Assembly (NCBI GenBank): GCA_948469885.1
Contig: CAOKMT010000007.1
Coordinates: forward strand, 35,623 to 99,622
Direction of reading: 5' to 3'
Source: an uncultured Sporosarcina sp.
Lineage (GTDB): Bacteria > Bacillota > Bacilli > Bacillales_A > Planococcaceae
DNA length: 64,000 nt
The notes under the pieces are model-generated. The model saw only the letters and a program-made list of their open reading frames with translations. It was not told where the DNA came from and did no database searches. This document shows, in pieces, positions 35,295 through 49,050 of this stretch. Both the position numbers and the translations under genes were made by a program. Every line of letters starts with the position of its first letter. The stretch's first letter is position 1.

Positions 35295-35762
35295 ATGGCG
35301 AAAGGAAAAGGCGGCATACTCGCGAGAAATAGAAGAGCGAACTACGATTACGCAATCGAAGATACAATCGAAGCAGGGATCGTTCTGCAAGGTACGGAAA
35401 TTAAATCCATCCGTGCGGGAAAAGTGCAATTGAAAGAATCATTCGTGCAAATACGGGGCGATGAAGCATGGATTTTAAATATGCATATCAGCCCGTACGA
35501 ACAAGGAAACCGATTTAACCATGACCCGATCCGCTCCCGAAAACTTCTATTGCATAAGAAACAGATCAGACAGTTGATCGGCAAAACGAAACAACAAGGC
35601 TATACAATCGTGCCGATTCAACTTCATTTGAAAAACGGTTTCGCCAAGGTATTGATTGGTGTCGGAAAAGGGAAGAAACATCACGATCGACGCGAAGACT
35701 TGAAACAGAAAGAAGCGAAGCGGGATATGGCGCGCGCGCTGAAGGAGAAACAGCAGTATTGA
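35295..35762 (+). CDS. smpB: SsrA-binding protein SmpB
   Basis: SmpB binds tmRNA and brings it to stalled ribosomes. The 155-residue protein has the OB-fold core [36 protein letters not shown] and the positively charged C-terminal tail ([14 protein letters not shown]) that enters the empty mRNA channel. GGGGGAG precedes ATG 35295. The stop codon overlaps the -35 box of the ssrA promoter. Confidence 0.97.
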
Positions 35763-35787
35763 TTTTTTAAGCGAAATAAGCTATAAT
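35759..35787 (+). promoter_or_regulatory. SigA promoter of ssrA
   Basis: TTGATT (35759-35764), a 17-base spacer and a perfect TATAAT (35782-35787). The -35 box overlaps the smpB stop codon. The tmRNA 5' end at 35843 would arise by RNase P processing. Confidence 0.8.
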
Positions 35788-35842
35788 TATTATTGTAGTA
35801 AGAGTTCGGAAGCCTTGTAGGCTATCCTAACATCCCTTTTAA

Positions 35843-36199
35843 GGGGACGTTACGGATTCGACAGGGGTGGTCTGAGCTTGAGTTGCGCGTCGGAGGGCTC
35901 GGCTCCGTCAGAAACGACACTTATAATAACAGGCAAAACAAACAACAACTTAGCATTCGCAGCGTAAGCTGACTGAATCTGCCTTATCGTTCCATCGCCC
36001 ATGTGGCGCGGTAAGGTTCACTTATTAGTGGGATACGCCGGCTGCTCCCTCCTGAGGCAGACGGAAGAGATTCTCAGGATAGCGCACAGGACGCCTCGTT
36101 TATCGGCATAATGTCGCGCGAAACCAAATAGATAAACTACACGCGTAGATGCTCAAGTGTATGAGCCTCTGGACGCGGGTTCGACTCCCGCCGTCTCCA
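35843..36199 (+). ncRNA. ssrA: Transfer-messenger RNA (tmRNA)
   Basis: The 5' end GGGGACGTTACGGATTCGAC and 3' end GGGTTCGACTCCCGCCGTCTCC form the tRNA-like domain, with acceptor stem GGGGACG / CGTCTCC and discriminator A; CCA is not encoded. The tag reading frame runs from GGC at 35932 to the stop at 35965-35967. It encodes GKTNNNLAFAA after the initial alanine, ending in the Ala-Ala degron for ClpXP. The gene follows smpB, its protein partner. Its 3' end is also the apparent integration site of the downstream island. Confidence 0.97.
36177..36192 (+). other. attL-like site in the ssrA 3' end
   Basis: GGGTTCGACTCCCGCC in the T-arm of tmRNA recurs with one mismatch at 52834-52849. In both places the matching sequence continues for about 100 bases downstream through the terminator. 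A tyrosine-integrase remnant begins about 240 bases away, pointing toward this site as in tmRNA-integrated islands. Confidence 0.6.
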
Positions 36200-36225
36200 T
36201 AAAGCAATATCATGGAGTTTCATTG

Positions 36226-36268
36226 AACGTCATAAACCTTGTTAAATCAAGGTTTGTGGCGTTTTTTA
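36226..36268 (+). terminator. Rho-independent terminator after ssrA
   Basis: AACGTCATAAACCTTG pairs with CAAGGTTTGTGGCGTT around a six-base loop and is followed by TTTTAG. A diverged copy occurs at about 52879-52922. Confidence 0.82.
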
Positions 36269-36431
36269 GTGTCATACGATTTCATTGGAGTTCAACGAAA
36301 TATAGTCAAAATCATAGTCAGAAAAAGTGCTAAGACAACGATGAAATCAGCCTTTATAAAATTGAATGATTGACGGAAATTCATCAAACCCTAGTCAAAA
36401 GTCGAATTTAGTCCGATAGATAGTTAGTGAA

Positions 36432-36603
36432 CTATTCAATTGTGCTTGCTTTTGTTTTTTTGGTAATACGGGTGTAAACATCTAACTTTGTTTTTATGTC
36501 ATTATGTCCCAAACGGTACTGCACTTTCTTGGGTGTTGTCTCTAACTCGAATAATAAAGAACAATGCGTATGACGCAATCCATGAGTCGTAATTGGTTGG
36601 CCG
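36432..36603 (-). pseudogene. C-terminal fragment of a phage-type tyrosine integrase
   Basis: Minus-strand translation from the IS boundary reads QPITTHGLRHTHCSLLFE, then VQYRLGHNDIKTKLDVYTRIT, and stops soon after. These are the box II residues of tyrosine recombinases: H-x-x-R-H, the LGH segment and the nucleophilic tyrosine in VYT. Only about 57 residues remain; the rest has been removed or displaced by the IS3-like insertion that starts at about 36594. The gene faced ssrA, the usual orientation for an integrase that uses the tmRNA site. Confidence 0.75.
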
Positions 36604-37688
36604 TCCCCCTTATAATGGACAGTAATTGGGTGTCAATTGAGAATTAAGGGAGGCGGCCATTTTGGTTTATAAAACTAAAAGAAACGTCTATAACGATCCA
36701 CTAGATAAATTAAAAGCAACTAAAAGAGTTGTTCATGATAACGTTCCATCACGGGGTGTTGCCGAAGAATTGTCAGTGAGTTTAACAAGCATCCAATAAT
36801 GGGCGAAACAATATAAAGACTATGGTCCGGATTACTTTACCAATAAGTGAAGCAATTTGAATCCCGACGTATGGATCGATGCGAAAGAACTGGCACGGCT
36901 TAAGGAAATCGAAAGGGACTTTGAAGCAAAGCAGTTATAGGTGGAAATCCTAAAAAAGTTCCAAGCCTTTCTTGGTCGAAGTAAAATTAAGTATTTCGAA
37001 GCGATTTCTTATTTAAGAAAGGATTATCCGGTGGGCTGTATATGTAAAACTTTCGGCGTATCAAGAAGCGGGTACTATGAATATATAAAGCGCCCAGTTC
37101 GCAGGTCTCGGAACGTGACATCAAATAAAAAGTAGCGATTCAAGCACTGTATGGTGAAAGCTGCGGTATGTTTGGCGCCAAACAGATCGCGCTGGTACGT
37201 TGAAGAAGAGAAAGCATATCGTGAATCATAAGCGGGTTGCACGATTGATGAAAGAAATGAATATAAAATCAAAAATCCGCAAAATGAAAAGTAGGCAGAA
37301 AGAAAAAGTACAAGCCGCAGGGTATATCTATCCTAATCTTCTTGCGTGCGATTTTAATGCTTTTTTTCCTCATTATAAATGGATGATGGACGTGACAGAG
37401 GTCATGCATGAGGAAACCAAAATTTATGTTTCTGCCTTGATGGATTTATTTAATCGGGGGCCAGTTAGTTTTGTCATTAGCAGAAATCCGAACAACGAAA
37501 TGATGGGAGAAACGATTCGTCAAGCGATGGAATCCCGCGGTCTAAAAGATCTGTCGCAAGTGCTGATTCATAAGAACGCGGCCAAAAACGTCTGGGGTAT
37601 TTATCACCCAAAGCGTTCCTGGCCGCGTATCATGAATGTGCCTAATTACGTGATTTCGTGGTGTCCACTTTTAGGGGGCTTGACCACA
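36594..37688 (+). mobile_element. Degenerate IS3-family (IS150-like) insertion sequence
   Basis: Imperfect terminal inverted repeats are visible: GGCCGTCCCCCTTATAATGG at the left and, read inward from the right end, AAGCCCCCTAAAAGTGGACA. OrfA remnants start at TTG 36662 (YKTKRNVYNDPLDKLKATKR...) and are broken by stops at about 36797 and 36848. OrfB remnants include YLRKDYPVGCICKTFGVSRSGYYEY and the integrase-core segment WMMDVTEV...YVSALMDLFNRGPVSFVISRN. Multiple stops and frameshifts, and loss of the second catalytic Asp region (VLIHKNAAKN in place of VLIHSDQG-like sequence), show it is inactive. It interrupts the island integrase. Confidence 0.8.
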
Positions 37689-37760
37689 CATCATCCCGTC
37701 CCAAAAATCGGCTGCATCATATATCTAGATCAGAATTGTTATTATCCAGCATATTGAACA

Positions 37761-38414
37761 TCATAATTCTTTTAACATATCTAATAATATTTTGTAAGCT
37801 TTACGTTTATGTTTTTTTGTTCGTTCCGCAGCTAATTCCGCATCTCTTTCCTTTAATGCATTAAGAATTTCAGTATGTTCCTCGATTGATTTTTGCAACG
37901 TCTTTGTTGTATGGAAAATTCTAGGGTACCTATTTGAGTAATCCCAGAGTTCAAAGATGATTTTATATAGTCGAGAGTTATTGCAATGCCTATAAATATA
38001 TTCATGAAATTCACGGTTGTGTTTTGCATATTCTTCAAACTGACAATCCGTTGAAGTTAACATCTCTTTAGAACTTTCAATCATTTCCTCCAATTTTTCC
38101 AAGTGGAAATTTGTAAGATGATCAACAGCCAATTGAGTAGCGAGAGCCTCCATATATATACGTAATTCAAAAATTTCCCGTATTTCTTCTTCGGATAATG
38201 TACTTACAATGGCGCCAACGTGAGGAACTAACTCAACGTATCCTTCTAGGGACAGCCTTTGTAGCGCCTCTCTCACTGGAATTTCACTGACATTAAATTG
38301 ATCTGCCAAATTTGAAATAATCAATCTTTCTCCTGGAGCAAATGTTCTATTCATAATTTCTTTTTGAATACAACTGTATACCTTTTCTGTTTTAGTACGA
38401 TACCTAGTTTGCAG
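37761..38414 (-). CDS. GntR family transcriptional regulator, FCD (FadR-type) subfamily
   Basis: The protein has an N-terminal winged HTH (MNRTFAPGERLIISNLADQFNVSEIPVREALQRLSLEGYVELVPHVGAIVST) and a C-terminal FCD ligand domain (about 80-210) with E-x-R (FELRIYME) and H-x-x-F-H (KHNREFHEYIYRH) metal/ligand motifs. The first ATG is at 38354, but that would cut off the first helix. In-frame sequence upstream reads QTRYRTKTEKVYSCIQKEI with an AAAAGGGTG ribosome-binding site before a CTG at 38414, so I place the start there; it may instead be a truncated gene. It is transcribed away from the catabolic cluster and is the likely local regulator. Confidence 0.8.
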   Translation of the reverse strand: MQTRYRTKTEKVYSCIQKEIMNRTFAPGERLIISNLADQFNVSEIPVREALQRLSLEGYVELVPHVGAIVSTLSEEEIREIFELRIYMEALATQLAVDHLTNFHLEKLEEMIESSKEMLTSTDCQFEEYAKHNREFHEYIYRHCNNSRLYKIIFELWDYSNRYPRIFHTTKTLQKSIEEHTEILNALKERDAELAAERTKKHKRKAYKILLDMLKEL

Positions 38415-38534
38415 GATAAATCACCCTTTTAATTATTTTATAGCGAGATTCGCAGAATATATACGTTATATTAAAAATAGTACCACAATATACCACTTTG
38501 ATCAATAATATATTATTTAGGTTTAAATATACCG

Positions 38535-38562
38535 TTGACAAACTAAATATATTGTATATAAT
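38535..38562 (+). promoter_or_regulatory. Strong SigA promoter of the catabolic cluster with possible operator
   Basis: A perfect TTGACA (38535-38540), a 16-base spacer and a perfect TATAAT (38557-38562). GTAT-ATA-ATAC overlaps the -10 box as a small inverted repeat that could bind the divergent GntR regulator. The surrounding 38415-38768 stretch has no gene and is very A+T-rich. Confidence 0.7.
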
Positions 38563-38768
38563 ACAGATATATGATCATTGAATTCAGAATAGGAGGATTA
38601 ATAAATAAATTCATTATTTAGCTATTGATGAAATTGAATTCCCTGGCTATGAAAAGTTGATCGATAACAAATAATGGATTGAGAGTAGCATGATTAATAG
38701 TTGTCTCATTTTTAGTTGATTAAAGTTTTGTATAGTAACTAATAAACTGAAGGGAAGTATCAATAATT

Positions 38769-39620
38769 ATGACTAATGTAACTCCATGGATTACAGACTG
38801 GGACCTTGAAAATCCGATTTCAATCAAGACGTCGAATGCTGCACCATTGTTAGAAGCCAAGTGGGAGGCTGGCCCTACACCATTTTTTGAAAGAAGGGAA
38901 CTGAATCTCGACAAGGCTTCTGACGGAAAATTAGGTGGTTCTCATGTTCGGGGTACTGCCGCTGAAGGGGAATGGCAAGCGGATGATGTCGATTTTAATA
39001 TGTTCTATGTTATCAAGGGATCAGCCCAAGTAGAATTCGAGGATGGTTCATCACATGAGCTTATATCCGATAGTTCTGCAGTATTACCTGCGTTGTATAG
39101 GTATCGTTTCACACATATCAGTGATGACTTTGAAGCACTGCACTTCTTTGCTCCGGACGCATATGACATTATTTGGGGAAAGGATGCGGCATTGCCAGAA
39201 CGTGTGAAAACGTTGGATCCTAATCGAAGCCCGGGCATCTCGCACGAGGATGAAGAGGCTTGGGAGGATGGACTCCGAGAGTTTTTTGAATATCGAGATC
39301 TTGGAACATTAGAGCCAACGGATGGCCGTTTGTATGTTCACGTCATCCGCACGACTGGTCAGCCATATGAAGAAGGTACAGGATGGCATTACCATTCTTG
39401 GGCACAGTGCTTCTTTGTGTTAGACGGTCACGCAGATTTACGAGTAGAGACAGGTGCACGCATCGCACTCAGTGCAGGGGATGCCTGCTGCATAGGATCA
39501 GGACCCACAAATCGCCACTTTGTTGATCGTGCAACTGCGGACTACAAGCTTGTGGAGTTATGCGTTCCTGGCTGGAAAGATGCTACGCCTGTGGAGGCAC
39601 CTAAAGGAGCATCACTATAA
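38769..39620 (+). CDS. Bicupin protein, possible metal-dependent dioxygenase or isomerase
   Basis: The 283-residue protein has two cupin domains. The first (about 70-130, FNMFYVIKGSAQVEFEDG) lacks the metal-binding histidines. The second (about 195-265) keeps H207-x-H209 in GTGWHYHSWAQ and H250 in SGPTNRHFV, with Gln in place of the usual motif-1 Glu, so one metal site is likely. Such bicupins include ring-cleaving dioxygenases and other enzymes; I cannot assign the reaction. It is the first gene after the strong promoter and lies 196 bases before a fumarylacetoacetase-family gene, suggesting it acts on an aromatic or oxo-acid intermediate. Confidence 0.7.
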   Translation: MTNVTPWITDWDLENPISIKTSNAAPLLEAKWEAGPTPFFERRELNLDKASDGKLGGSHVRGTAAEGEWQADDVDFNMFYVIKGSAQVEFEDGSSHELISDSSAVLPALYRYRFTHISDDFEALHFFAPDAYDIIWGKDAALPERVKTLDPNRSPGISHEDEEAWEDGLREFFEYRDLGTLEPTDGRLYVHVIRTTGQPYEEGTGWHYHSWAQCFFVLDGHADLRVETGARIALSAGDACCIGSGPTNRHFVDRATADYKLVELCVPGWKDATPVEAPKGASL

Positions 39621-39816
39621 GCATTGACACTTCAGTTCATTGTTTTCATTGCTTAGAATAGCACTTGCTTGGTTGGTAATGTGAGATAACAGGGTTCTTT
39701 TATCTTTAGAGCTTGTCCAAGGGTGGAAACCGGTGAGTAACTCCATTATTGACTGAGCATTGCTCTTTATGTGGTATTCGAGCTATTGGCACCATTTGTA
39801 TAAGGAGGACTATTAG

Positions 39817-41052
39817 ATGATAAATAAATTTACCGCCGTTGATTTACTGGGCAAGCGCGGCTTCGGAGTAGAAAATCTCCCCTACGGTTCAGTGTACATG
39901 GAGGAAAACACCGTTCCTAGGGTGGTTGTTCGGCTAGGGGATCATGCGATTGATCTAGGGTCCCTAGCGTCGACAGTTGGTGGGCTTAGTTCAAAAGCAA
40001 AAGATGCTGTGACAGACCAACCCAACATAGATGCATTGTTGGCTGCTGGTCGCCCCATCTGGTCTGAGCTACGTAACTGGCTAAAACAAACATTTACCAA
40101 TCCCAGCCATACGGCGGCAGTAAAAGATGTGGCAAATAACGTAAGTGATGTTAACATGGCTATGCCTTTTACGGTGGGCGATTATGTTGACTTTTATGCA
40201 TCGGAGAATCATGCATCTAATATTGGTCGCATATTGCGTCCAAGTGAGGAGCCATTGAAACCTAACTGGAAGCACTTGCCAGTTAGTTATCATGGTCGTG
40301 CCTCAAGTGTGTTCGTTTCAGGAACCCCTGTGCGCCGACCGAAAGGGATACGGCCAGAAAAGAATGCGGATCCAAGCTTTGGTCCCTCTAGGAAACTAGA
40401 TATTGAAGCAGAGATTGGGTTCCTCGTTGGAGGTTCGGCACCACATGGTGAAGTCAGCTTGGCGCAAGCTGCGGAGAACCATTTATTTGGGGCTGTTTTG
40501 TTCAACGATTGGTCTGCACGTGATATTCAGGCGTTCGAGTTTGTGCCTTTAGGTCCTAACTTAAGTAAATCGTTTGCTTCAACGATTTCAGCATGGGTTG
40601 TTCCATGGGATGCATTAGACGCAGCTCGTATGATGCCGCCGAGTCGTGATAAAGTACTTTTGCCGTATTTAGATGATTCCAATGCTGACCCATATGGACT
40701 GGATATTTCAGTAGAAATCCATATCGACGATCAACATGTTTCTACAGCACCTTACTCAACGATGTACTGGACAGCGCCCCAGATGTTGGCTCATATGACT
40801 GTCAATGGTGCTGCCATTCGCCCGGGGGATTTCTTTGGTTCTGGCACCATTTCTGGATCGGAACCGAATCAACGTGGCTCTTTGATGGAGATGACTTTGG
40901 GAGGGAAAGTACCACTAATTGCCAGTAACGGAGAGAAATTTAGTTATCTCAGGGACGGTCAGCAAGTAACACTGCGCGGAAGTGCCGCTGGACCAGGAGA
41001 AAGCATCATTAGCTTCGGCGAATGTACTGCTACCGTACTTCCTGCCACATAA
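39817..41052 (+). CDS. Fumarylacetoacetase family hydrolase
   Basis: This 411-residue protein has the architecture of true fumarylacetoacetases: an N-terminal SH3-like domain (1-115) and the FAH catalytic domain. Visible active-site residues are Asp125 and the catalytic His132 in VDFYASENHASNIG, glutamates in LDIEAEIGFLVG, and Asp in FNDWSARDIQ; GSGTISGSEPNQRGSLMEM is also typical. The family hydrolyses the C-C bond of fumarylacetoacetate or a related diketo acid to fumarate plus a second acid. AAGGAGG precedes ATG 39817. No homogentisate dioxygenase or GST-type isomerase is nearby, so the substrate may differ from the classical one. Confidence 0.88.
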   Translation: MINKFTAVDLLGKRGFGVENLPYGSVYMEENTVPRVVVRLGDHAIDLGSLASTVGGLSSKAKDAVTDQPNIDALLAAGRPIWSELRNWLKQTFTNPSHTAAVKDVANNVSDVNMAMPFTVGDYVDFYASENHASNIGRILRPSEEPLKPNWKHLPVSYHGRASSVFVSGTPVRRPKGIRPEKNADPSFGPSRKLDIEAEIGFLVGGSAPHGEVSLAQAAENHLFGAVLFNDWSARDIQAFEFVPLGPNLSKSFASTISAWVVPWDALDAARMMPPSRDKVLLPYLDDSNADPYGLDISVEIHIDDQHVSTAPYSTMYWTAPQMLAHMTVNGAAIRPGDFFGSGTISGSEPNQRGSLMEMTLGGKVPLIASNGEKFSYLRDGQQVTLRGSAAGPGESIISFGECTATVLPAT

Positions 41053-41209
41053 ATCACCATTAGAAGCTATGCGAAAAATTGTTGAGGTACGCGGTGTAGC
41101 CGAAAAAACCGCGCGCCTCTATCCAATTGGCTTTGATTGGGAAGAGGTTTGCAAAGGTGTTTTGTGTAACGGTATTTTAAAAGTTTTAAAGTATACGAAG
41201 GTGGTTTAA
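41053..41209 (+). other. Possible coding remnant after the fumarylacetoacetase gene
   Basis: The sequence just after the stop stays open in another frame and encodes SPLEAMRKIVEVRGVAEKTARL followed by YPIGFDWEEVCKG. It has no ribosome-binding site or start of its own. It looks like the tail of a displaced gene, but I do not recognise the family. Confidence 0.25.
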
Positions 41210-41279
41210 ATTTGAATTCCTTGAGTTTTAATAAATCAAAGAGGCTAATTTTACTGCCAAAATGGTGAGGAGATATAGT

Positions 41280-42032
41280 ATGAAGAAAATTCTTGTTCAA
41301 AGTAGTACCAACGTTAAAAAAAGTCCTGTCTATTTGGAAGGGATACAAAATCATGCGAAAAAGATTCTGTCCTCTAACTTTACAACTGAAATAGATGGCG
41401 TAGAGACGCCATATAGTTCAGAGGTTCACTTTATGTCATACGAGTTTTTGAATAATCGAGAGATTTTAAAGAATATTGTTGAAGCGGAAAAATCTGGGTA
41501 TGATGCAGTGGCATTTCATTGCTTTTTGGATCCGATTTTAGATGAGGCTAGAGAGCTTGTGGATATCCCTGTAATTGGAATGGGTGAAACTTCAATGCTA
41601 ACGTCCTTAATGTATGGAAAGAGATTTGCCATTGTGACCTACACACCGCAGTTAGCAAAAAAATCTTATGGGAACTTGATTCAAAAATATGGGCTTTCTG
41701 ATCAAGCTGTAGAAACTCAATTTTTTGAAGTAAGTATTGAAGATCTTGGAAATGCATTTCATGATCCAAAGCCTATTTTAGATAAATTTATAAGTGCGTG
41801 CGAAAAAGCGATTGCGAAAGGAGCCGAGGTTATATTGCCAGGATGTGGGCTTTTAAATATCCTTTGTATCCAAAATAACATTACCCAGGAAACATTAGGA
41901 GCCACAATTATGGACGTAACTGGAATGGCATTGAAGATGGCCGAAACGCAAATAATTTTGAAAGAAGTTTCGGGAACGTCATTGAGCAGAGTCGGATATT
42001 ATGAAAGTCCAAAAAATTTACCAGAAATTTAA
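41280..42032 (+). CDS. Asp/Glu/hydantoin racemase family protein
   Basis: The 250-residue protein belongs to the aspartate/glutamate racemase superfamily. It has the two catalytic cysteines expected for a two-base mechanism: Cys81 in AFHCFLDP and Cys189 in ILPGCGLLN. DIPVIGMGETSM follows the first, as in hydantoin and allantoin racemases. The same superfamily includes maleate cis-trans isomerase. ATG 41280 is chosen because GAGGAG lies before it; the ATG at 41262 precedes that ribosome-binding site. Between a fumarylacetoacetase homologue and SDR genes, a cis-trans isomerase or racemase role in the pathway is plausible but inferred. Confidence 0.8.
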   Translation: MKKILVQSSTNVKKSPVYLEGIQNHAKKILSSNFTTEIDGVETPYSSEVHFMSYEFLNNREILKNIVEAEKSGYDAVAFHCFLDPILDEARELVDIPVIGMGETSMLTSLMYGKRFAIVTYTPQLAKKSYGNLIQKYGLSDQAVETQFFEVSIEDLGNAFHDPKPILDKFISACEKAIAKGAEVILPGCGLLNILCIQNNITQETLGATIMDVTGMALKMAETQIILKEVSGTSLSRVGYYESPKNLPEI

Positions 42033-42229
42033 TTTTGAAAGCGCATACAAATTAATGTTTATCCATCTCCAATTAGGAAAATAAGAAGATGCTGGCTCCA
42101 GTCGGGAGAATAAAAAAAGGGATTAGCTCTTCGTATGTATCAAGTTGTATTGCGAGGTAAGTTCTTAGTTGATAGCGGAACGGAAATTTATGGTCTTTAA
42201 TATTAAGACTATTTGGAGGGTGAATAAGT

Positions 42230-42970
42230 ATGGGAAGGTTAAAAAATAAAATAGCGTTAATTACCGGCGCTGCTATGGGGCAAGGAAAAGAAATTGCAAA
42301 ATTATTTGCCTCAGAAGGAGCAACAGTTATTTTAACAGACATGAATATGGCAGGGAAAGAAACAGCAGCAGAAATTTCCAACGCGGGCGGAGATGTGAAT
42401 TTTGTACAAATGGATGTTTCGAAGTTAGCGGATTGGAACAAGGTAGCTGACTATATAAAAGACGCCTATAACAATCTGGATATACTTGTCAATAATGCTG
42501 GTATTCCAGGTAGAGGATCGATAGAGGAAATAACGGAAGATGAATGGCAGAAAGTTATGGATGTAGATGCAAAAGGTGTTTTATTTGGAATGAAATCAAT
42601 GCTACCTTTCTTGAAGAAAAGTAAGCAAGGATCTATTGTCAATAATTCATCCATATGGGCATTAGTTGGAACTGGATCAGCAGCATCTTATCACGCAGCA
42701 AAAGGGGCGGTTAGAATGTTGACTAAAACGGCTTCCATAGAATTTGCTCCATTTGGGATAAGGGTTAATTCCATCCATCCGGGACTTGTACGGACGCCTA
42801 TGACAGAGCTTTTGTTAGCAGATCCAAAGGAATCATGGCGGATTGGACCAATTGGGAGAGCCGCTGAACCAATTGAAATCGCATATGCGGCCTTATTTCT
42901 TGCCTCAAATGAATCATCCTACATAACTGGGATAGATTTGCCAGTTGATGGGGGTTACACCGCCCGTTAA
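42230..42970 (+). CDS. SDR family oxidoreductase (1)
   Basis: This 246-residue short-chain dehydrogenase has cofactor motif TGAAMGQG (12-19), Asp37 in LTDMN suggesting NAD(H) preference, NNAG (88-91), and the catalytic set Ser140/141, Tyr154 and Lys158 (SYHAAKG). It starts at ATG 42230 behind GGAGGGTG. It is the first of three SDR genes in this cluster. The substrate is unknown; secondary alcohol or dihydrodiol oxidation is usual for the family. Confidence 0.88.
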   Translation: MGRLKNKIALITGAAMGQGKEIAKLFASEGATVILTDMNMAGKETAAEISNAGGDVNFVQMDVSKLADWNKVADYIKDAYNNLDILVNNAGIPGRGSIEEITEDEWQKVMDVDAKGVLFGMKSMLPFLKKSKQGSIVNNSSIWALVGTGSAASYHAAKGAVRMLTKTASIEFAPFGIRVNSIHPGLVRTPMTELLLADPKESWRIGPIGRAAEPIEIAYAALFLASNESSYITGIDLPVDGGYTAR

Positions 42971-43048
42971 TTTAACGCCTGTTTAAAGAGATAGAAATAA
43001 ATGATGATCAGTTAATTAAAGACATTTGACTAGAAGGGATTGGTTGGT

Positions 43049-43816
43049 TTGAATTTTGATGGAAAGGTTGCCTTAATAACTGGTGCAGCTGGGGGAATTG
43101 GTAAGGAAGCGGCGCGGTTATTTAAGGAAAATGGTGCTCAATTGGTTTTGGTGGATTTGAATGAAGAAGCTTTAAAAAACATGGTAAATGAATTGGAACT
43201 AAAGGATTTTCTTTTAATTCCTGCTGATGTAACAAAAGAGGAAGATGTAAAGAATTACACAAAGCTGGCAGTTGAAAAGTATGGTAAAGTGGATATCTTT
43301 TTCAATAATGCTGGTATCGTAGGAGATTTTGCAGAAATAACAGAGGTTACGTCCGAAGACTTCAATAAAATCATTGATATAAATCTAAAAGGTGTTTTTT
43401 ACGGGTTGAAACATGTTCTGCGTGTCATGAAAGAACAAAAATCAGGTTGTATTGTGAATACCTCATCAGTTGCTGGACTTGGAGGATCACCTTCCCTTGG
43501 CCCATATGCAGCAACAAAACATGCTGTAAATGGACTAACCAAAACTGCTGCGGTGGAGGTTGCAGATGAAGGGATTCGTGTTAATGCGATTTGCCCGTCT
43601 CCTGTAGATACAGCATTGATGAGAGATCTTGATGAAGTAAAATCTCCTGAAGATTCGTCAAAAGCACGCGGCGCATATGAACAAAAAATTCCTTTAAAGC
43701 GTTACGCTACGCCAACCGAAATTGCCGAATTAGTGCTCTTTTTATGTTCTGAACAGTCGTCATTTATTACAGGAGGAGCTTATCTGATTGATGGTGGATA
43801 TACAGCTACTTATTGA
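43049..43816 (+). CDS. SDR family oxidoreductase (2)
   Basis: This 255-residue short-chain dehydrogenase has TGAAGGIG (11-18), Asp36 in LVDLN, NNAG (86-89), and catalytic Ser139/140, Tyr153 and Lys157 (PYAATKHAV). TTG 43049 (MNFDGKVALITGA) is preferred because AAGGGA lies nine bases upstream; TTG 43040 touches the ribosome-binding site. It lies 78 bases after SDR 1 and is clearly a diverged paralogue rather than a recent duplicate. Confidence 0.85.
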   Translation: MNFDGKVALITGAAGGIGKEAARLFKENGAQLVLVDLNEEALKNMVNELELKDFLLIPADVTKEEDVKNYTKLAVEKYGKVDIFFNNAGIVGDFAEITEVTSEDFNKIIDINLKGVFYGLKHVLRVMKEQKSGCIVNTSSVAGLGGSPSLGPYAATKHAVNGLTKTAAVEVADEGIRVNAICPSPVDTALMRDLDEVKSPEDSSKARGAYEQKIPLKRYATPTEIAELVLFLCSEQSSFITGGAYLIDGGYTATY

Positions 43817-43985
43817 ATTAAGGAATGACTTTAATTGAGCAAAGAAAATCGAGCGTTTAATTCTCTAATCTTTTTTTGTATACTTCTCACTTTCGTAGAG
43901 AAATAACCGGCTGATTTAATTTTGCTTGAACAAAAAAACTGTAGAGTTTAATGAATGTAAAGATACTTTACAAAAGGAGATTTCG

Positions 43986-44189
43986 ATGAAAAAGACAAAA
44001 TGGGAATGGTTTGGGGTAATTTATACAACTCTTTTATTATTATTTACAGTCCCACTGCTATTATTTGCTTTTCAATTATTTTTGAAAGTTCCTGAGATAA
44101 GGTTATATTACTATATGATTCTTTTAGTACCTATTATAGGTCTTTCTACCGGCATATATGGATTGAGAAAAACTAAGGAACAAAAATAG
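43986..44189 (+). CDS. Small two-helix membrane protein, symporter partner
   Basis: The 67-residue protein has two membrane helices (about 10-30 and 36-56) separated by a charged turn and a basic C-terminus (LRKTKEQK). AAAAGGAG lies six to seven bases before ATG 43986; the upstream in-frame ATG 43926 has none. It ends nine bases before a sodium:solute symporter, the position in which small DUF3311-like accessory proteins are often found. I infer a subunit or stabiliser role. Confidence 0.65.
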   Translation: MKKTKWEWFGVIYTTLLLLFTVPLLLFAFQLFLKVPEIRLYYYMILLVPIIGLSTGIYGLRKTKEQK

Positions 44190-44198
44190 GAGGTAGGG

Positions 44199-45683
44199 AT
44201 GATGAGTCCAACAATATATATTGTTATATTTTTATATTTACTAGCCACCTTAATTATTGGTTATTTATCCTCCAGAGACAGTACAACAGTTGATTACGTA
44301 GCAGGAGGACAAAACAATCCTTATTGGGTAGTTGGTGCGGGATATATCGCTGAGTATCTGAGTGCATCTAGTTTTTTAGGTATTGTGGGAATTATATATG
44401 TTCAGGGTTTTATGCCTAATGGAGCATACGTTGGATCAGTAATAGGATATATGGGATGTTTAGCTTTATTTGGACCGTTGCTCAGACGTTTCGGTCAGTT
44501 TACTATACCAGACTTTTTGGGAGATAGATATGATAGTAATTTTGTCCGTGGACTCTCAGCCGCTGTAATTTTTATTGGATACATATTTTATGTAACAATT
44601 CAATTTATTGGTGTCGGCTTATTATTCCAATTAATTTTTGATATCCCATATTTTGTTGCAGTTATTATTGCCGCAGGTATTGTTGGGATTTATACCCTTC
44701 TCGGTGGTATGAAGGCTACGGCTTATGTTGATGTGTTTCAACTGTTATTTGCTTGGGTCTCGGCAGGGATAATTATTACTGTAACCGTCCTTAAAGGTGG
44801 AGGAATGTATAATATTATAGGTAATATTGAAAAACATTATCCACATTTCTTTACCAGTGATGCTGGTTTAGGGGATCCTTGGGTAGTATGGAGTTTAATC
44901 TTTATTTGGATTTTCGGTACGTTAGCAAGAGCTGACACAGTTAGCCGTGTATTTTTGGCAAAAAACGAAAGAGAAGTATATAAAGCCATTCTCTTTACGA
45001 CGCCATTTATATGGGCATCTGGATTAATGTTTTTCATTCTAGGGATGGCAGGCAGATCTTTACTTCCGGGTTTAGAGGGAGTAGAAGCGGAAACAATTTA
45101 TTTAATCGCTGCACAAGAGTGGGTTCCACCTGTTATTACGGGTATCGCTTTCGCAGGGCTACTTTCAGCGGCACAATCAACAGCGAGTGGACAACTAATG
45201 GTTTCTTCTTTAGCTGTTGGAAGAGATATCTATGGAAAGTTCTTAGGTGAAAAAATTAAAAAGAGAAAAATTACTGAAGAAGAAATGATCAAAATGACTA
45301 AGATTGTATTAGTCGTAATGGTTCTCTTAACAATGGGTGTTGCATTAATGAGGCTTTCATGGATAACTACTTTTGCCAATTTATCCGCAGCTACAACAGG
45401 ACCAGCTTTCTTAGTTACGTGGCTAGGAGGATTTTTCTGGAAAGGATCTACAAAACAAGGAGCTGCGAGTGCTTTAATCGTTGGTGCGTTGCTAGGTAGC
45501 TATACATTCCTATTTGGTTTCTCTATTCCAGCTGCACCGTGGTTAGTAGGTCCAGTTTTTACGCTGATTGTTACGGCAACTGTTTTCATCGTTGTATCTA
45601 AATTTACCAAGACAACAGAAAATTCATTAAAAGTTTATGATAGCATTGTCGAAAAAAGAAGACAAAAAGCAAAAGTGGGTTAA
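44199..45683 (+). CDS. Sodium:solute symporter family protein
   Basis: This 494-residue SSS-family transporter has about 13 membrane helices. Family features include YVAGGQNNPYWVVGAGYIAEYLSASSFLG in the first helices and GIAFAGLLSAAQSTASGQLMVSSLAVGRDIY, the conserved sodium-site region. AGGAGG lies five bases before ATG 44199 and eight before a second ATG at 44202, so either may be used. It probably imports the substrate of the catabolic cluster, most likely a carboxylate, though specificity cannot be read from sequence. Confidence 0.9.
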   Translation: MMSPTIYIVIFLYLLATLIIGYLSSRDSTTVDYVAGGQNNPYWVVGAGYIAEYLSASSFLGIVGIIYVQGFMPNGAYVGSVIGYMGCLALFGPLLRRFGQFTIPDFLGDRYDSNFVRGLSAAVIFIGYIFYVTIQFIGVGLLFQLIFDIPYFVAVIIAAGIVGIYTLLGGMKATAYVDVFQLLFAWVSAGIIITVTVLKGGGMYNIIGNIEKHYPHFFTSDAGLGDPWVVWSLIFIWIFGTLARADTVSRVFLAKNEREVYKAILFTTPFIWASGLMFFILGMAGRSLLPGLEGVEAETIYLIAAQEWVPPVITGIAFAGLLSAAQSTASGQLMVSSLAVGRDIYGKFLGEKIKKRKITEEEMIKMTKIVLVVMVLLTMGVALMRLSWITTFANLSAATTGPAFLVTWLGGFFWKGSTKQGAASALIVGALLGSYTFLFGFSIPAAPWLVGPVFTLIVTATVFIVVSKFTKTTENSLKVYDSIVEKRRQKAKVG

Positions 45684-45770
45684 CAACCTAAATTTTAATT
45701 TCAATAGAAAGATGGGAATTCAGAATAATCAAGACGATTGAAAATTAAACTGGAACAGGATGAGATTGTT

Positions 45771-46505
45771 ATGAGATTAAAAAACAAAGTCGCGATTATA
45801 ACAGGAGCCGCAGCTGGTATAGGAAAAAGTGTTGCGGAAAAATTTGCTGGAGAAGGTGCTACCGTTGTTCTAGCTGACCTTCCCCACACGGCAGGGACTG
45901 AAGTCGCAAAGGGAATCGAGGACAAAGGTGGAAAGGCACTATTTATTCCTACAGATATTACAAAAAAGGATGAAGTAACAAATCTAGTTAAAAAAACAAT
46001 AGATAACTTTAAAACAATAGATATTTTACACAATAACGCAGGTGTTGCTATGCCTATTACTTCCTTGGAAGAGGTAGATGACGATACTTTTCAAAGGATT
46101 ATGGATGTGAATGTAAAGGGCGTTTTTTGGGGGATACAGGCAGTTATCCCCTATATGAAGGAAGCGGGTGAAGGGGTTATATTATGCACTGGCTCTACCT
46201 CCGCAATCCGCCCTCGTTCTGGGCTAAACATCTATTGTGCATCAAAGGGGGCAGCAGTTACGTTAGCAAAATCTATGGCTCTTGAGCTTGCCTCCTTTGG
46301 AATTAGGGTAAATACCATTAATCCCGTGGCGACGGATACTGGAATGATTGATAATGAGCAACGTGAAAAGTTCATTAAAACAATACCTCTTGGACAGTTA
46401 GCCCAACCGATCGATATGGCGAATGCAGCATTATTTTTAGCTTCGGATGATGCCAAAATGATTACTGGGGTAGAGATAGAGGTAGATGGCGGAAGATGTA
46501 TCTGA
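45771..46505 (+). CDS. SDR family oxidoreductase (3)
   Basis: This 244-residue short-chain dehydrogenase has TGAAAGIG (11-18), Asp36 in LADLP, HNNAG (87-91), and catalytic Ser142, Tyr155 and Lys159 (IYCASKG). ATG 45771 is chosen for its canonical start MRLKNKVAIITGA; the upstream ATG 45738 lacks a good ribosome-binding site. It is the last gene of the co-directional run that starts at the bicupin and is followed by a terminator. Confidence 0.87.
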   Translation: MRLKNKVAIITGAAAGIGKSVAEKFAGEGATVVLADLPHTAGTEVAKGIEDKGGKALFIPTDITKKDEVTNLVKKTIDNFKTIDILHNNAGVAMPITSLEEVDDDTFQRIMDVNVKGVFWGIQAVIPYMKEAGEGVILCTGSTSAIRPRSGLNIYCASKGAAVTLAKSMALELASFGIRVNTINPVATDTGMIDNEQREKFIKTIPLGQLAQPIDMANAALFLASDDAKMITGVEIEVDGGRCI

Positions 46506-46710
46506 AGGAATTTGACGGTCCCAAGAGGAAAGGTACCTTTTGTTGATATGGCAATGTTCATATCTTTATTTGTAAAGAGACGTATGGTATATGATTCAAT
46601 ATGGGGTCGAATCAGGATTTAGCGATTTGCTGGTAGTACCCCTAATAACAAGACAAAACATATGCTAAGTAATTTGTTCAGATAACCACCGTTATATAGA
46701 CAAGTTACCC

Positions 46711-46749
46711 AGCTCGCCTTATTCAACATTTAAGCGGGCTGTTTTTTTA
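46711..46749 (+). terminator. Rho-independent terminator of the catabolic run
   Basis: AGCTCGCCTTA pairs with TAAGCGGGCT, with wobble and one bulge, and is followed by GTTTTTTT. Confidence 0.75.
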
Positions 46750-46751
46750 TT

Positions 46752-46811
46752 AAGTAAGCGTCCAATAATGCCTACCTGAAACACTAGGTGGGCATTATTG
46801 GACGCTTACTT
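46752..46811. repeat. 26-bp near-perfect inverted repeat
   Basis: The arm at 46752-46777 (AAGTAAGCGTCCAATAATGC...) is the reverse complement of 46786-46811 except for one G-U position; the loop is eight bases. It lies three bases after a terminator. It may be a second bidirectional terminator or a relic of a mobile-element end. Confidence 0.85.
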
Positions 46812-47241
46812 TTCTATGTCTAGAAGTAGAAAGCATGGCGTATTTGCAGTTACACCCCATCGTTTTTACAGTATTTATCTATCATACCTGAAAAGTAGGA
46901 AAGAGCCCCATTTCTTTAAAGGGTATTTTTACGTTAATATAGAATAATTAAATAGACTATATATTCCGAAAAACATTAACAGGATTGAATCCATTATTCA
47001 AGTATCCAATGAAAAAAGAAGCACACGATTACAGGAAACGACCATTAAGCAATTAGAAGAAAGCTATGCTCAGTAATTATCAAGTCCAGCCTGAAAGGAA
47101 AGGAGGTGGTAAGGAGAATTGTACCGATACCAGGTGTCCCCCCTGGTTCAATTTAAAACCATTTAGTCGATACAAAAATAACGGTTAAGGAGAGTCTAAT
47201 TCGACGAATGGCGGAAGTTTAATATTTTGAGGAGGGTGAAA
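46812..47241. other. Gene-poor spacer before the iron-type ADH
   Basis: No complete gene is seen. At about 46985-47076 an open stretch encodes ESIIQVSNEKRSTRLQETT and ends LEESYAQ followed by a stop, which looks like the end of a lost coding sequence of unknown family. GGTGTCCCCCCTGG near 47132 has no clear role. The ADH ribosome-binding site GAGGAGGG is at its right end. Confidence 0.3.
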
Positions 47242-48414
47242 ATGAGTAGGATTAGAAACACGGAGTTTTCAGCAAAAACAACACTGTTCACTGGATCTGG
47301 AAGTATCAATTTTCTTGCTGAGGAATTGAAAAAGGATGATTACAACAACTTACTTATTATAACAGATAAAGGAATTAAAAACTCTGGAATTTTAGAAAAA
47401 GTTGAATCAATCCTTAAATCAATAGACCTTGAAACTTTGGTGTATGATGATGTAAAACCAAACCCAAGTGTCTCTGCAACAAATGAGGCGTATGAAAAAT
47501 ATAAACATAAAAATATAAAAGGTATCCTTGCTGTTGGTGGGGGGAGTGTCATGGACGCTGCAAAGGCAGTAGCCGTCTTACTGACTAATGGCGGATCAAT
47601 TGCTGATTATTTTGGGGTTGACCAATATGGAAATGAACCTATTCCTCTATTTGCCGTTCCAACGACAGTGGGGACTGGTAGTGAAGCTGGACGCGCTTCA
47701 GTAATAACAGAAGATACCTCAAATCTTAAAACTAAAAAACTTGTTATTGGTAAATCACTTTTTCCAAAAGCAGCGTTTTTAGATGGTGAATTATTAATAG
47801 GAATGCCTGGATCGCTAGTTGCATCTACTGGAATGGATGCATTAACACATGCCATTGAAAGCTACTTATCAAGAAAGGGTTCTGTAGTTACCGATGCATT
47901 AAACATACATGCTGTAAAAGTCATTGGTGAATCAATTTTACAGGCCTCAGCAAATACAGATAATGAAGAAGCAATGAATAACATGATTCAGGCAAGCACA
48001 GCAACAGGTATTGGAATGTCAAATGGAGGATTAGGATTGGTACATGCAATTTCACATGCAATTGGTGCACAGTACGATGCTCCACATGGAATTGTAAATG
48101 CGATTCTTTTACCTTATGTTCTAGAGTTTAATTGGATAGCAAACCCACATAAATTTGCGGATATAGCTCAAGCACTTCGTGTTAATACGTGGGGAATGCC
48201 CATAGAAAAAGCGGCGAAAGCGGCTGTTGAAAGGGTAAAAGAGCTTACTACCGAAATTGGAATACCAGAAAAGCTAAGTGAAATAGGCATAGATAAAAGT
48301 AATATTGATGTACTAACAGATATTGCATTTAATGATGATCTATATATGATGGCAAATCCTAGGAAAGCCACAAAAGATGATATCTATAAAATATTAGAGA
48401 AAGCAATTGGTTAA
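47242..48414 (+). CDS. Iron-containing alcohol dehydrogenase
   Basis: The 390-residue group III (Fe-type) alcohol dehydrogenase has the NAD-binding GGGSVMDAAKA (99-109), TTVGTGSE (141-148), and metal ligands Asp199, His203, His268 and His282 (GMDALTHAIESYLS; GLVHAISHAIG; APHGIVNAILLP). GAGGAGGG lies seven bases before ATG 47242. The superfamily includes maleylacetate reductases, which is of interest beside a ring-cleavage-like gene set, but the motifs here are those of general Fe-ADHs. A decayed aldehyde dehydrogenase follows. Confidence 0.9.
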   Translation: MSRIRNTEFSAKTTLFTGSGSINFLAEELKKDDYNNLLIITDKGIKNSGILEKVESILKSIDLETLVYDDVKPNPSVSATNEAYEKYKHKNIKGILAVGGGSVMDAAKAVAVLLTNGGSIADYFGVDQYGNEPIPLFAVPTTVGTGSEAGRASVITEDTSNLKTKKLVIGKSLFPKAAFLDGELLIGMPGSLVASTGMDALTHAIESYLSRKGSVVTDALNIHAVKVIGESILQASANTDNEEAMNNMIQASTATGIGMSNGGLGLVHAISHAIGAQYDAPHGIVNAILLPYVLEFNWIANPHKFADIAQALRVNTWGMPIEKAAKAAVERVKELTTEIGIPEKLSEIGIDKSNIDVLTDIAFNDDLYMMANPRKATKDDIYKILEKAIG

Positions 48415-48569
48415 ATTATCGTTAGAGTTTTGTGATAAATAAAGCATAGATTAACACACTACGATGGAATTTCATATGTGATTTAAGTAATGAAAGTGTC
48501 TGATCTTTTTAAATGGAGCAAGCTACTTACTAATGATAGGTTGTAAACGATGTTAAAGGAAAAATACTT

Positions 48570-48965
48570 AAAATATTTAACCCACGAACGGAGAAGTACT
48601 AGTATACGTTAGTGAAAAAAAGAAGGAAGCCGCACATCAAGCGTTTCTTGCAATAAAGACATCATTGAAGGATGGACCTTGGTTGAACATAAGCACTGCT
48701 GAACGGGGGCACCCCCTGTATAAGTTTTCTGGATTAATTGGAATAAAAATACAAATGCAGAGATCGTATCTCTGTATAATGGGAAATCGATTCATGAAGC
48801 AGTGGAATCTGAAATGTGTATGGCTATTTGTCAGTTTAGATATTTTGCTGGATGTATAACAAAATATGTAGGTCAGACCGTTTCTGTTTCAAGATTATAT
48901 TAAAATTATTCGCGTCATGAGCCAGTAGGATTAGTGGGTAAATTATCCCTTGGAATTTTCCTATA
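48570..48965 (+). pseudogene. Aldehyde dehydrogenase fragment, frameshifted
   Basis: Translation in one frame gives TNGEVLVYVSEKKKEAAHQA, then SLKDGPWLNISTAER. After a frameshift near 48740 another frame gives AEIVSLYNGKSIHEAVESEM, FRYFAGCITKYVGQTVSV and, after an internal stop, HEPVGLVGKLSLGIF. These are the ordered N-terminal motifs of NAD-dependent aldehyde dehydrogenases (DNGKPIREA, RYYAGWADK, REPVGVVGQI). The catalytic part is missing. It once followed the alcohol dehydrogenase, as in an alcohol-to-acid oxidation module. Confidence 0.8.
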
Positions 48966-49050
48966 TCAATGCTCGCCTAGAGAATTTAAATTATAAAATC
49001 CAACTGAAAAGTTAGATTACCTTTTTACTATATTCCTAGGAGGAATAAAA

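Follow-up and report, generated by a model that had tools for sequence, protein, structure and literature searches.

A laterally transferred bicupin-fumarylacetoacetase gene unit near ssrA in an uncultured Sporosarcina, and the catabolic pathway that it may encode

A 64,000-nucleotide stretch of DNA from an uncultured Sporosarcina sp. (contig CAOKMT010000007.1, positions 35,623 to 99,622; hereafter the window) carries a row of genes that raises the following question: do a bicupin, a fumarylacetoacetase (FAH) and their neighbours form one catabolic pathway, and which reactions would it comprise? The genome that holds the window is 3.59 Mb in size, lies in 225 contigs and is 88.5% complete; the contig of the window is 99.6 kb long. 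The unit in question, at 37720-46584, consists of a divergent GntR/FCD-family regulator, a promoter at 38535 and eight co-directional genes. These genes encode, in this order, a bicupin, FAH, a hydantoin-racemase-family enzyme, two short-chain dehydrogenases/reductases (SDRs 1 and 2), a small membrane protein, a sodium:solute symporter (SSS) and a third SDR (SDR 3). All the genes named in the initial annotation were found to be open, intact and oriented as stated there, on the basis of the list of open reading frames (ORFs) and of Pfam and NCBIfam scans. The unit is real, bounded and mobile. We give slightly less than an even chance to the reading that it is a laterally transferred pathway of import, SDR oxidation, ring opening by the bicupin, isomerisation and cleavage by FAH, the reactions, step order, regulation and substrate of which we infer.

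A second copy of the unit was found in Sporosarcina sp. ACRSM, where all nine genes, from the regulator to SDR 3, stand in the same order with 92-99% protein identity. In the DNA alignment, the block common to both (window 37720..46584) fell into two pieces of 91.8% and 94.5% identity, with a short break at 42093-42135, whereas the flanking genes showed identities of 75% (smpB), 78% (rnr) and 89% (transfer-messenger RNA, tmRNA). By the Nei-Gojobori method, the synonymous distance (dS) was 0.15-0.36 across the nine genes, as against about 3, which is saturated, in smpB. The ratio of non-synonymous to synonymous distance (dN/dS) was 0.02-0.16, with purifying selection on each gene (0.15 for the regulator, 0.11 for the bicupin and 0.02 for the symporter). 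The low dS of the block beside the saturated value of smpB, together with the contrast in identity, therefore indicates a recent transfer of the block between lineages, and the low dN/dS indicates that all nine genes have been kept working. The initial annotation had described a coherent import-and-degrade unit, and this description is supported by the transfer as a block and by the selection on the nine genes. Its gene families are also conserved together elsewhere, namely in Sporosarcina sp. ACRSM, the single other full copy found. Judged from these comparisons, the unit is a laterally transferred, putatively catabolic unit inserted near ssrA.

The setting of the unit was then considered at both borders. 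Just upstream lie rnr and smpB, which were named by eye from their ORFs, followed by the tmRNA gene ssrA (35843..36199, plus strand; Rfam), which marks the neighbourhood of insertion. Between ssrA and the unit, window 36425-37757 holds an integrase-like remnant and a broken transposase. The former, recognised by eye on the minus strand at about 36.4-36.6 kb, is the C-terminal part of a tyrosine integrase; the latter has an HTH_21 match above the cut-off and an rve match slightly below it. Such debris of integrases and transposases is usual in islands at ssrA. The cluster of Sporosarcina sp. ACRSM likewise lies downstream of ssrA, beyond a duplicate of the tmRNA 3' end, and this repetition is as expected for tandem islands at ssrA. 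The two tmRNA 3' ends in that genome, at L007 1477-1497 and 8349-8369, bound an element of its own, about 6.9 kb long, that separates ssrA from the cluster.

At the other border, an iron alcohol dehydrogenase gene (Fe-ADH; 47227-48414, well above the Pfam cut-off) had been counted as part of the unit in the initial annotation. This gene starts 721 bp past SDR 3, and upstream of it stands a 20-pair hairpin followed by a T-rich tail (46758..46805, plus strand; terminator scan), which is a likely transcript end, although terminator-like sites in the scanned region numbered 8 against 7.5 expected. The similarity to Sporosarcina sp. ACRSM ends at 46584. The gap, the hairpin and the end of similarity place Fe-ADH outside the unit. 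No relative of Fe-ADH was found among the ORFs of the approximately 3 kb downstream of the Sporosarcina cluster, the flank to which this search was limited, and blastn gave no similarity to the Fe-ADH region in the next 9.8 kb downstream of that cluster.

The base composition bears on whether the unit is one pathway at all. The GC content of the bicupin and FAH genes is 47.7%, whereas that of the other seven genes is 28-41%. Gaps of about 200 bp separate the bicupin, FAH, racemase and SDR 1 genes, and the racemase-SDR 1 spacer differs by 139 bp in length between the two species and is only 70% identical. These features would suit a chance composite, in which a bicupin-FAH pair was joined to an unrelated uptake module of racemase, SDRs and symporter. 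Such a composite is, in our estimate, very improbable, since in both lineages the nine genes have stayed side by side, unbroken and under selection, and a single strong promoter stands at their front. Because the host genes rnr and smpB have a GC content of 45-46%, the composition reveals a mosaic but gives no pointer to a donor. An actinobacterial origin of the bicupin-FAH pair is plausible because of the FAH tree and the bicupin relative in Agrococcus (see below). As a separate observation, the bicupin-FAH spacer (window 39621-39816) is 95.9% identical between the species, as against 70-91% in the six other measured spacers, and possibly holds a conserved element.

The last step of the proposed pathway is assigned to FAH (39817..41052, plus strand), a two-domain protein that scores 405.7 bits against the fumarylacetoacetase model TIGR01266, the cut-off of which is 375.3. 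Residues D125, Y127, H132, R141, Y158, E197, E199, D231, R235, Q238, K251, T344 and E358 match those of PDB 9sqs; we take these 13 positions to be catalytic, metal-binding or substrate-binding in mammalian FAH. One further Tyr of 9sqs is replaced by Phe (F242). A reaction of the fumarylacetoacetase type is very probable as the end step of the unit. A midpoint-rooted tree of nine rows places the FAH of the unit with two Rhodococcus FAHs (98/98), apart from the two FAHs that contig C26 of the same genome encodes. The nearest plasmid FAHs, among 12 matches listed of 118, are 46-52% identical; actinobacterial operons of homogentisate dioxygenase (HGO), a hypothetical protein and FAH on Rhodococcus, Tsukamurella and Pseudonocardia plasmids share with the unit these nearest FAHs. 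Unlike the unit, these operons encode an HgmA-like cupin together with an unknown protein; three such unknown proteins (281-283 aa) were compared with the bicupin and proved unrelated to it.

In the pathway that we propose, the SSS symporter would import a cyclic carboxylic acid, and the three SDRs would oxidise its ring hydroxyls and so ready the ring for opening. The bicupin, by way of one metal site of three His (or with Gln) in its C-half, would use O2 to cleave the ring, or else a cyclic diketone, and so give a maleyl-type diketo acid. The racemase-family enzyme would isomerise this acid, either cis-trans or at a stereocentre, and would replace the isomerase of glutathione S-transferase (GST) type. 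FAH would finally split the fumaryl diketo acid into fumarate and a second product, acetoacetate or something closely analogous. In the presence of an inducer, the FCD regulator would free the 38535 promoter. The front end, which comprises SDR oxidation, ring opening by the bicupin and isomerisation by the racemase-family enzyme, is a reasoned proposal to which we give about an even chance. A more specific version, a glutathione-independent pathway in which the 2o8q-type bicupin is an unrecognised ring-cleaving dioxygenase and the hydantoin-racemase-family enzyme a maleyl-to-fumaryl isomerase, and which moves between Bacillota as an ssrA island, appears rather unlikely. The proposed pathway would give a test case for the maleyl-to-fumaryl step in Gram-positive bacteria without a GST-type isomerase. 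With a bounded mobile set of genes, a strong promoter and a well-understood FAH, the substrate of the bicupin can be searched for by induction and by analysis of the FAH product.

The proposed pathway is a variant of known cupin/FAH ring-cleavage logic. As in the homogentisate pathway (HgmA-MaiA-FAH), a true fumarylacetoacetase comes last, a cupin-fold enzyme would come first, and fumarate and acetoacetate are the expected products. Unlike that pathway, the unit has no HgmA, 4-hydroxyphenylpyruvate dioxygenase (HPPD) or GST-type MaiA, a lack already stated in the initial annotation and confirmed by Pfam and NCBIfam scans of the products of the unit. It has instead a different, duplicated small-cupin protein, and it adds the symporter, three SDRs and the racemase-family enzyme. 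The gentisate pathway (gentisate dioxygenase, maleylpyruvate isomerase, fumarylpyruvate hydrolase) also combines a cupin with a His-rich site and an FAH-superfamily hydrolase. It differs in that the bicupin shows no match to the gentisate dioxygenase model TIGR02272 and in that the hydrolase of the unit is a full-length FAH.

The bicupin (38769..39620, plus strand; 283 aa; Pfam scan and alignments) is the candidate for a dioxygenase that cleaves a ring or a diketone. Each of its halves shows homology to small single cupins, namely a Polaromonas protein and PDB 2o8q. The cupins of this type, which include relatives on Burkholderiales plasmids, differ from the bicupin in that they have a single domain, are labelled hypothetical and show no tandem fusion. 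The best stretches of the Cupin_2 and Cupin_3 models both fall in the C-half of the bicupin, and the metal motif is retained in this half only: an HxH motif and a later His (H207, H209 and H250), plus Q213, are invariant in all three bicupins. Gentisate and diketone dioxygenases have 3-His sites, and homogentisate dioxygenase has a 2-His-1-Glu site. The pattern in the C-half seems to resemble the 3-His sites rather than the 2-His-1-Glu site, which is a lead, not a test. The only NCBIfam match at E <= 0.001 was a weak one to nif11_cupin (19 bits vs 159). As a gentisate or homogentisate dioxygenase of the known kinds, the bicupin was rejected for lack of a model match and of a significant sequence match.

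The neighbourhoods of related cupins were also compared. A scan of one genome per species, covering 84,980 species, gave eight candidate stretches for the bicupin. Two were confirmed, with protein identities of 93% in Sporosarcina sp. ACRSM and 63% in Agrococcus baldri. In Agrococcus, the bicupin gene comes third in a row, after those for acetoacetyl-CoA synthetase (832 bits vs a cut-off of 520.9) and for an FAH-superfamily protein (PF01557 with PF18288). Because the synthetase gene adjoins the FAH-superfamily and bicupin genes there, this arrangement suggests acetoacetate as a possible product. Plasmid matches came from six records, and the single-cupin neighbourhoods of three of them were fetched. 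On the Polaromonas plasmid, one gene run comprises the single cupin, an MFS transporter, an MhpA-like hydroxylase, a VOC protein and an FAH-family protein.

The enzyme proposed for the isomerisation, a candidate cis-trans isomerase or racemase, belongs to the Asp/Glu/hydantoin racemase family (41280, the likely start, to 42032, plus strand; PF01177, 88.9 bits). It retains both cysteine columns of hydantoin racemase 3qvj. The related PDB chain 3qvk has serine at both columns, which is taken to be a deliberate mutation. A Sagittula plasmid carries, in a row, a gentisate-dioxygenase-like cupin (289 bits, below the cut-off of 442), an FAH-family protein and a protein of the Amdase/Asp-Glu-racemase superfamily. 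This gentisate-like trio, with the racemase-superfamily gene in third place, may be a parallel for such an enzyme in the isomerase position, its function there also being an inference. On the same plasmid, a few genes from the trio, lies a protein related to the window racemase with 33% identity.

The three SDRs lie on the plus strand at 42230..42970 (SDR 1, 246 aa), 43040..43816 (SDR 2, 258 aa) and 45771..46505 (SDR 3, 244 aa from ATG). Identified by Pfam and by motifs, they all keep the Tyr-x3-Lys and NNAG motifs and score well above the Pfam cut-offs. Their nearest solved relatives are Rv2002 and hydroxysteroid and R-specific alcohol dehydrogenases for SDR 1, levodione reductase for SDR 2, for which the 12 relatives listed also include dehydrogenases of cyclohexanol and borneol, and the 4-formylbenzenesulfonate dehydrogenase TsaC for SDR 3. 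These relatives offer hints of cyclic substrates and prove nothing. The symporter (44199..45683, plus strand; PF00474, 172 bits) has PanF and PutP as its best named models, both far under the cut-offs (TIGR02119, 156/328; TIGR02121, 148/515). Nine bp upstream of its gene lies that of an 87-aa membrane protein with two hydrophobic stretches (43926..44189, plus strand), a possible small partner of the symporter; the 87-aa ORF gave no Pfam or NCBIfam match.

Several facts weigh against the proposed pathway. Only one full sister cluster, that of Sporosarcina sp. ACRSM, was found. The bicupin has no significant match to HgmA-like proteins, and its sole clear solved relative, 2o8q, is labelled hypothetical. 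In Agrococcus, the FAH partner belongs to another subfamily and no racemase gene was seen in the bicupin neighbourhood. Polaromonas offers the only aromatic-like neighbourhood of the three single cupins; that of Comamonas is not of this kind and that of Cupriavidus is unannotated. The window racemase is closest to hydantoin and allantoin racemases, and BLASTP gave no meaningful match between it and the Amdase-type protein of Sagittula. For its relatives, 271 plasmid records gave a match and five neighbourhoods were fetched; an FAH-family gene stands near the relative only in Sagittula. In the five, the neighbours are acyl-CoA dehydrogenases in one, tricarballylate and amino-acid genes in another, thiolase, ligase, SDR and cyclase genes in two, and thiolase and aldehyde dehydrogenase genes in one. 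Because these neighbours are mostly thiolase, acyl-CoA ligase, SDR and transport genes, not FAH, some other role for this branch of racemases is favoured. The resemblance of the SDRs to their relatives does not, at such a level, predict a substrate. In addition, an aromatic substrate must arrive already dihydroxylated, because the unit has no hydroxylase or ring-hydroxylating oxygenase.

Part of this evidence would also agree with a different chemistry. The bicupin could be an isomerase, lyase or hydratase, and the SDRs could convert a non-aromatic substrate, either a sugar acid or an alicyclic compound, into a 2,4-diketo acid. The racemase-family enzyme could be a true racemase that sets the stereochemistry, and FAH could perform only the final C-C cleavage. 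The lack of a hydroxylase, the affinity of the racemase to hydantoin and allantoin racemases, the restriction of the HxH motif to one half of the bicupin and the lack of an assigned function for this protein are in line with this explanation, and the three SDRs suggest repeated alcohol oxidation. We nevertheless regard it as unlikely, since the unit has no gene for a sugar-acid dehydratase, lactonase or aldolase, its FAH is of the full fumarylacetoacetase type, and one single-cupin relative lies in an aromatic-type gene run. The sugar-acid diketo route of L-rhamnose/L-fucose type combines a short FAH-type hydrolase with genes for a dehydratase and a lactonase. No dehydratase or lactonase was found among the ten gene products scanned, and the FAH of the unit is of the long type.

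The relationship of the unit to the homogentisate route was examined in the genomes concerned. On another contig of the genome of the window, C26, lie two HgmA-like genes, each paired with a neighbouring FAH of its own. They score 63-65 bits against TIGR01015 (cut-off 510.75), the copy that was scanned is above both Pfam HgmA cut-offs, and CoA-transferase-like ORFs, recognised by eye, lie near one of them. Since each HgmA-like gene has its own FAH, the FAH of the unit is a third, separate copy. In Sporosarcina sp. ACRSM, the FAH of the cluster is the only one of five FAH matches above the fumarylacetoacetase cut-off. A profile search of that genome gave no HgmA_C (PF04209) match, but the same search detected one of the two HgmA-like copies in the genome of the window and is thus not fully sensitive; the weakness of this silence, one copy having been missed, counts against the proposed pathway as well. 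HPPD was not found over the cut-off in the genomes of the window, Sporosarcina sp. ACRSM or Agrococcus (one weak 42-bit match in Sporosarcina), and GST-type MaiA (TIGR01262) was found in none of these three. The missing homogentisate enzymes in Sporosarcina sp. ACRSM, a genome of completeness not given, are evidence, not proof.

The initial annotation had considered that the rest of a homogentisate route might lie elsewhere in the genome. This holds in so far as HgmA-like genes exist; it fails in that each of them has its own FAH, Sporosarcina sp. ACRSM has no HgmA_C or MaiA match and HPPD is below the cut-off. FAH as the missing piece of the genome's own homogentisate route was therefore rejected as the leading explanation. 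The unit might still be an accessory homogentisate branch, in which the bicupin would act as homogentisate dioxygenase without being its orthologue, with homogentisate precursors supplied by the SDRs and symporter. The grouping of its FAH with FAHs of actinobacterial HGO operons (the two Rhodococcus rows), the acetoacetyl-CoA synthetase next to the bicupin region in Agrococcus and the HgmA_C result in Sporosarcina are consistent with such a branch. We think it quite improbable, given the HPPD result in the three genomes, the two HgmA-like clusters that the genome already holds, the dissimilarity of the bicupin to HgmA-like proteins and the three SDRs, which would have no obvious role.

The expression of the unit was analysed on the basis of its upstream region. 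The sigma-70-like promoter TTGACA-16-TATAAT (38535..38562, plus strand) is a 12/12 match with a 16-base spacer. It is the sole 12/12 match in 37700-48500, and both hexamers are identical in Sporosarcina sp. ACRSM; the strong promoter claimed at this position thus stands. Promoter-like sites in 37700-48500 numbered 23, against a shuffled mean of 33.5. Because this total is not above the shuffled mean, the evidence for the promoter rests on the perfect site and on its conservation. AT-rich imperfect inverted repeats lie over and near the promoter and are a possible site for the regulator. Rfam at gathering thresholds matched only tmRNA in 35700-49000, so the leader is without a known riboswitch. 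The regulator itself (37761..38354, minus strand) matches FCD with 86.3 bits (2.8e-24) and GntR with 45.4 bits (6.2e-12). In both species, its frame stays open upstream, at window 38355-38440, and appears to encode there the beginning that the GntR domain otherwise lacks. Because this open frame contains no ATG in either species, the true start of the regulator probably lies upstream of the first ATG, at a rare non-ATG codon.

The genes of the unit are rare in the genome samples searched. These samples overlap and the thresholds are strict, so that remote relatives are uncounted; the genome of Sporosarcina sp. ACRSM was not among the matches. The bicupin was found in one of 151 genomes of the family and in one of 299 of the phylum at E <= 1e-20, both being the window's own. 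Within the order of Agrococcus, Agrococcus itself was the one match among 347 genomes at E <= 1e-15. At E <= 1e-6, three of 396 Actinomycetota matched, that is, Agrococcus and two weak matches, which were set aside as larger bicupins (352 and 358 aa) apparently of another kind. The genome of the window was also the only match for the racemase (1/398 of the class, E <= 1e-40), for the symporter (1/151, E <= 1e-120) and for FAH (1/151, E <= 1e-70, with three copies). Megablast found no copy of the whole unit in the plasmid collection, and the symporter had no plasmid match at E <= 1e-50. In viral contigs, none of 66 pattern matches to the bicupin was confirmed, and no PHROG matched it. The listings from literature searches contained no description of such a cluster.

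Two further observations concern the HgmA-like clusters of contig C26. A protein family adjoins the FAH gene of both clusters (L003 6693-7697 and L004 4879-5835), and relatives of it lie between the HGO and FAH genes on Rhodococcus and Tsukamurella plasmids. It gave no Pfam or NCBIfam match and no convincing solved relative (best E 0.58); a Cys close to the C-end is among the residues invariant across five members. Because the genome has no match to GST-type MaiA, this family is a candidate glutathione-independent maleylacetoacetate isomerase. Passages of PMC11889516 name HmgA and HmgB in Rhodococcus and leave the unknown protein of the HGO-FAH operons undiscussed. Finally, one of the homogentisate-type clusters (L003 4191-9336) includes a luciferase-like monooxygenase and an NADPH-FMN reductase-like ORF, the latter recognised by eye. 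In this genome, which gave no HPPD match, that cluster is possibly another way to homogentisate.

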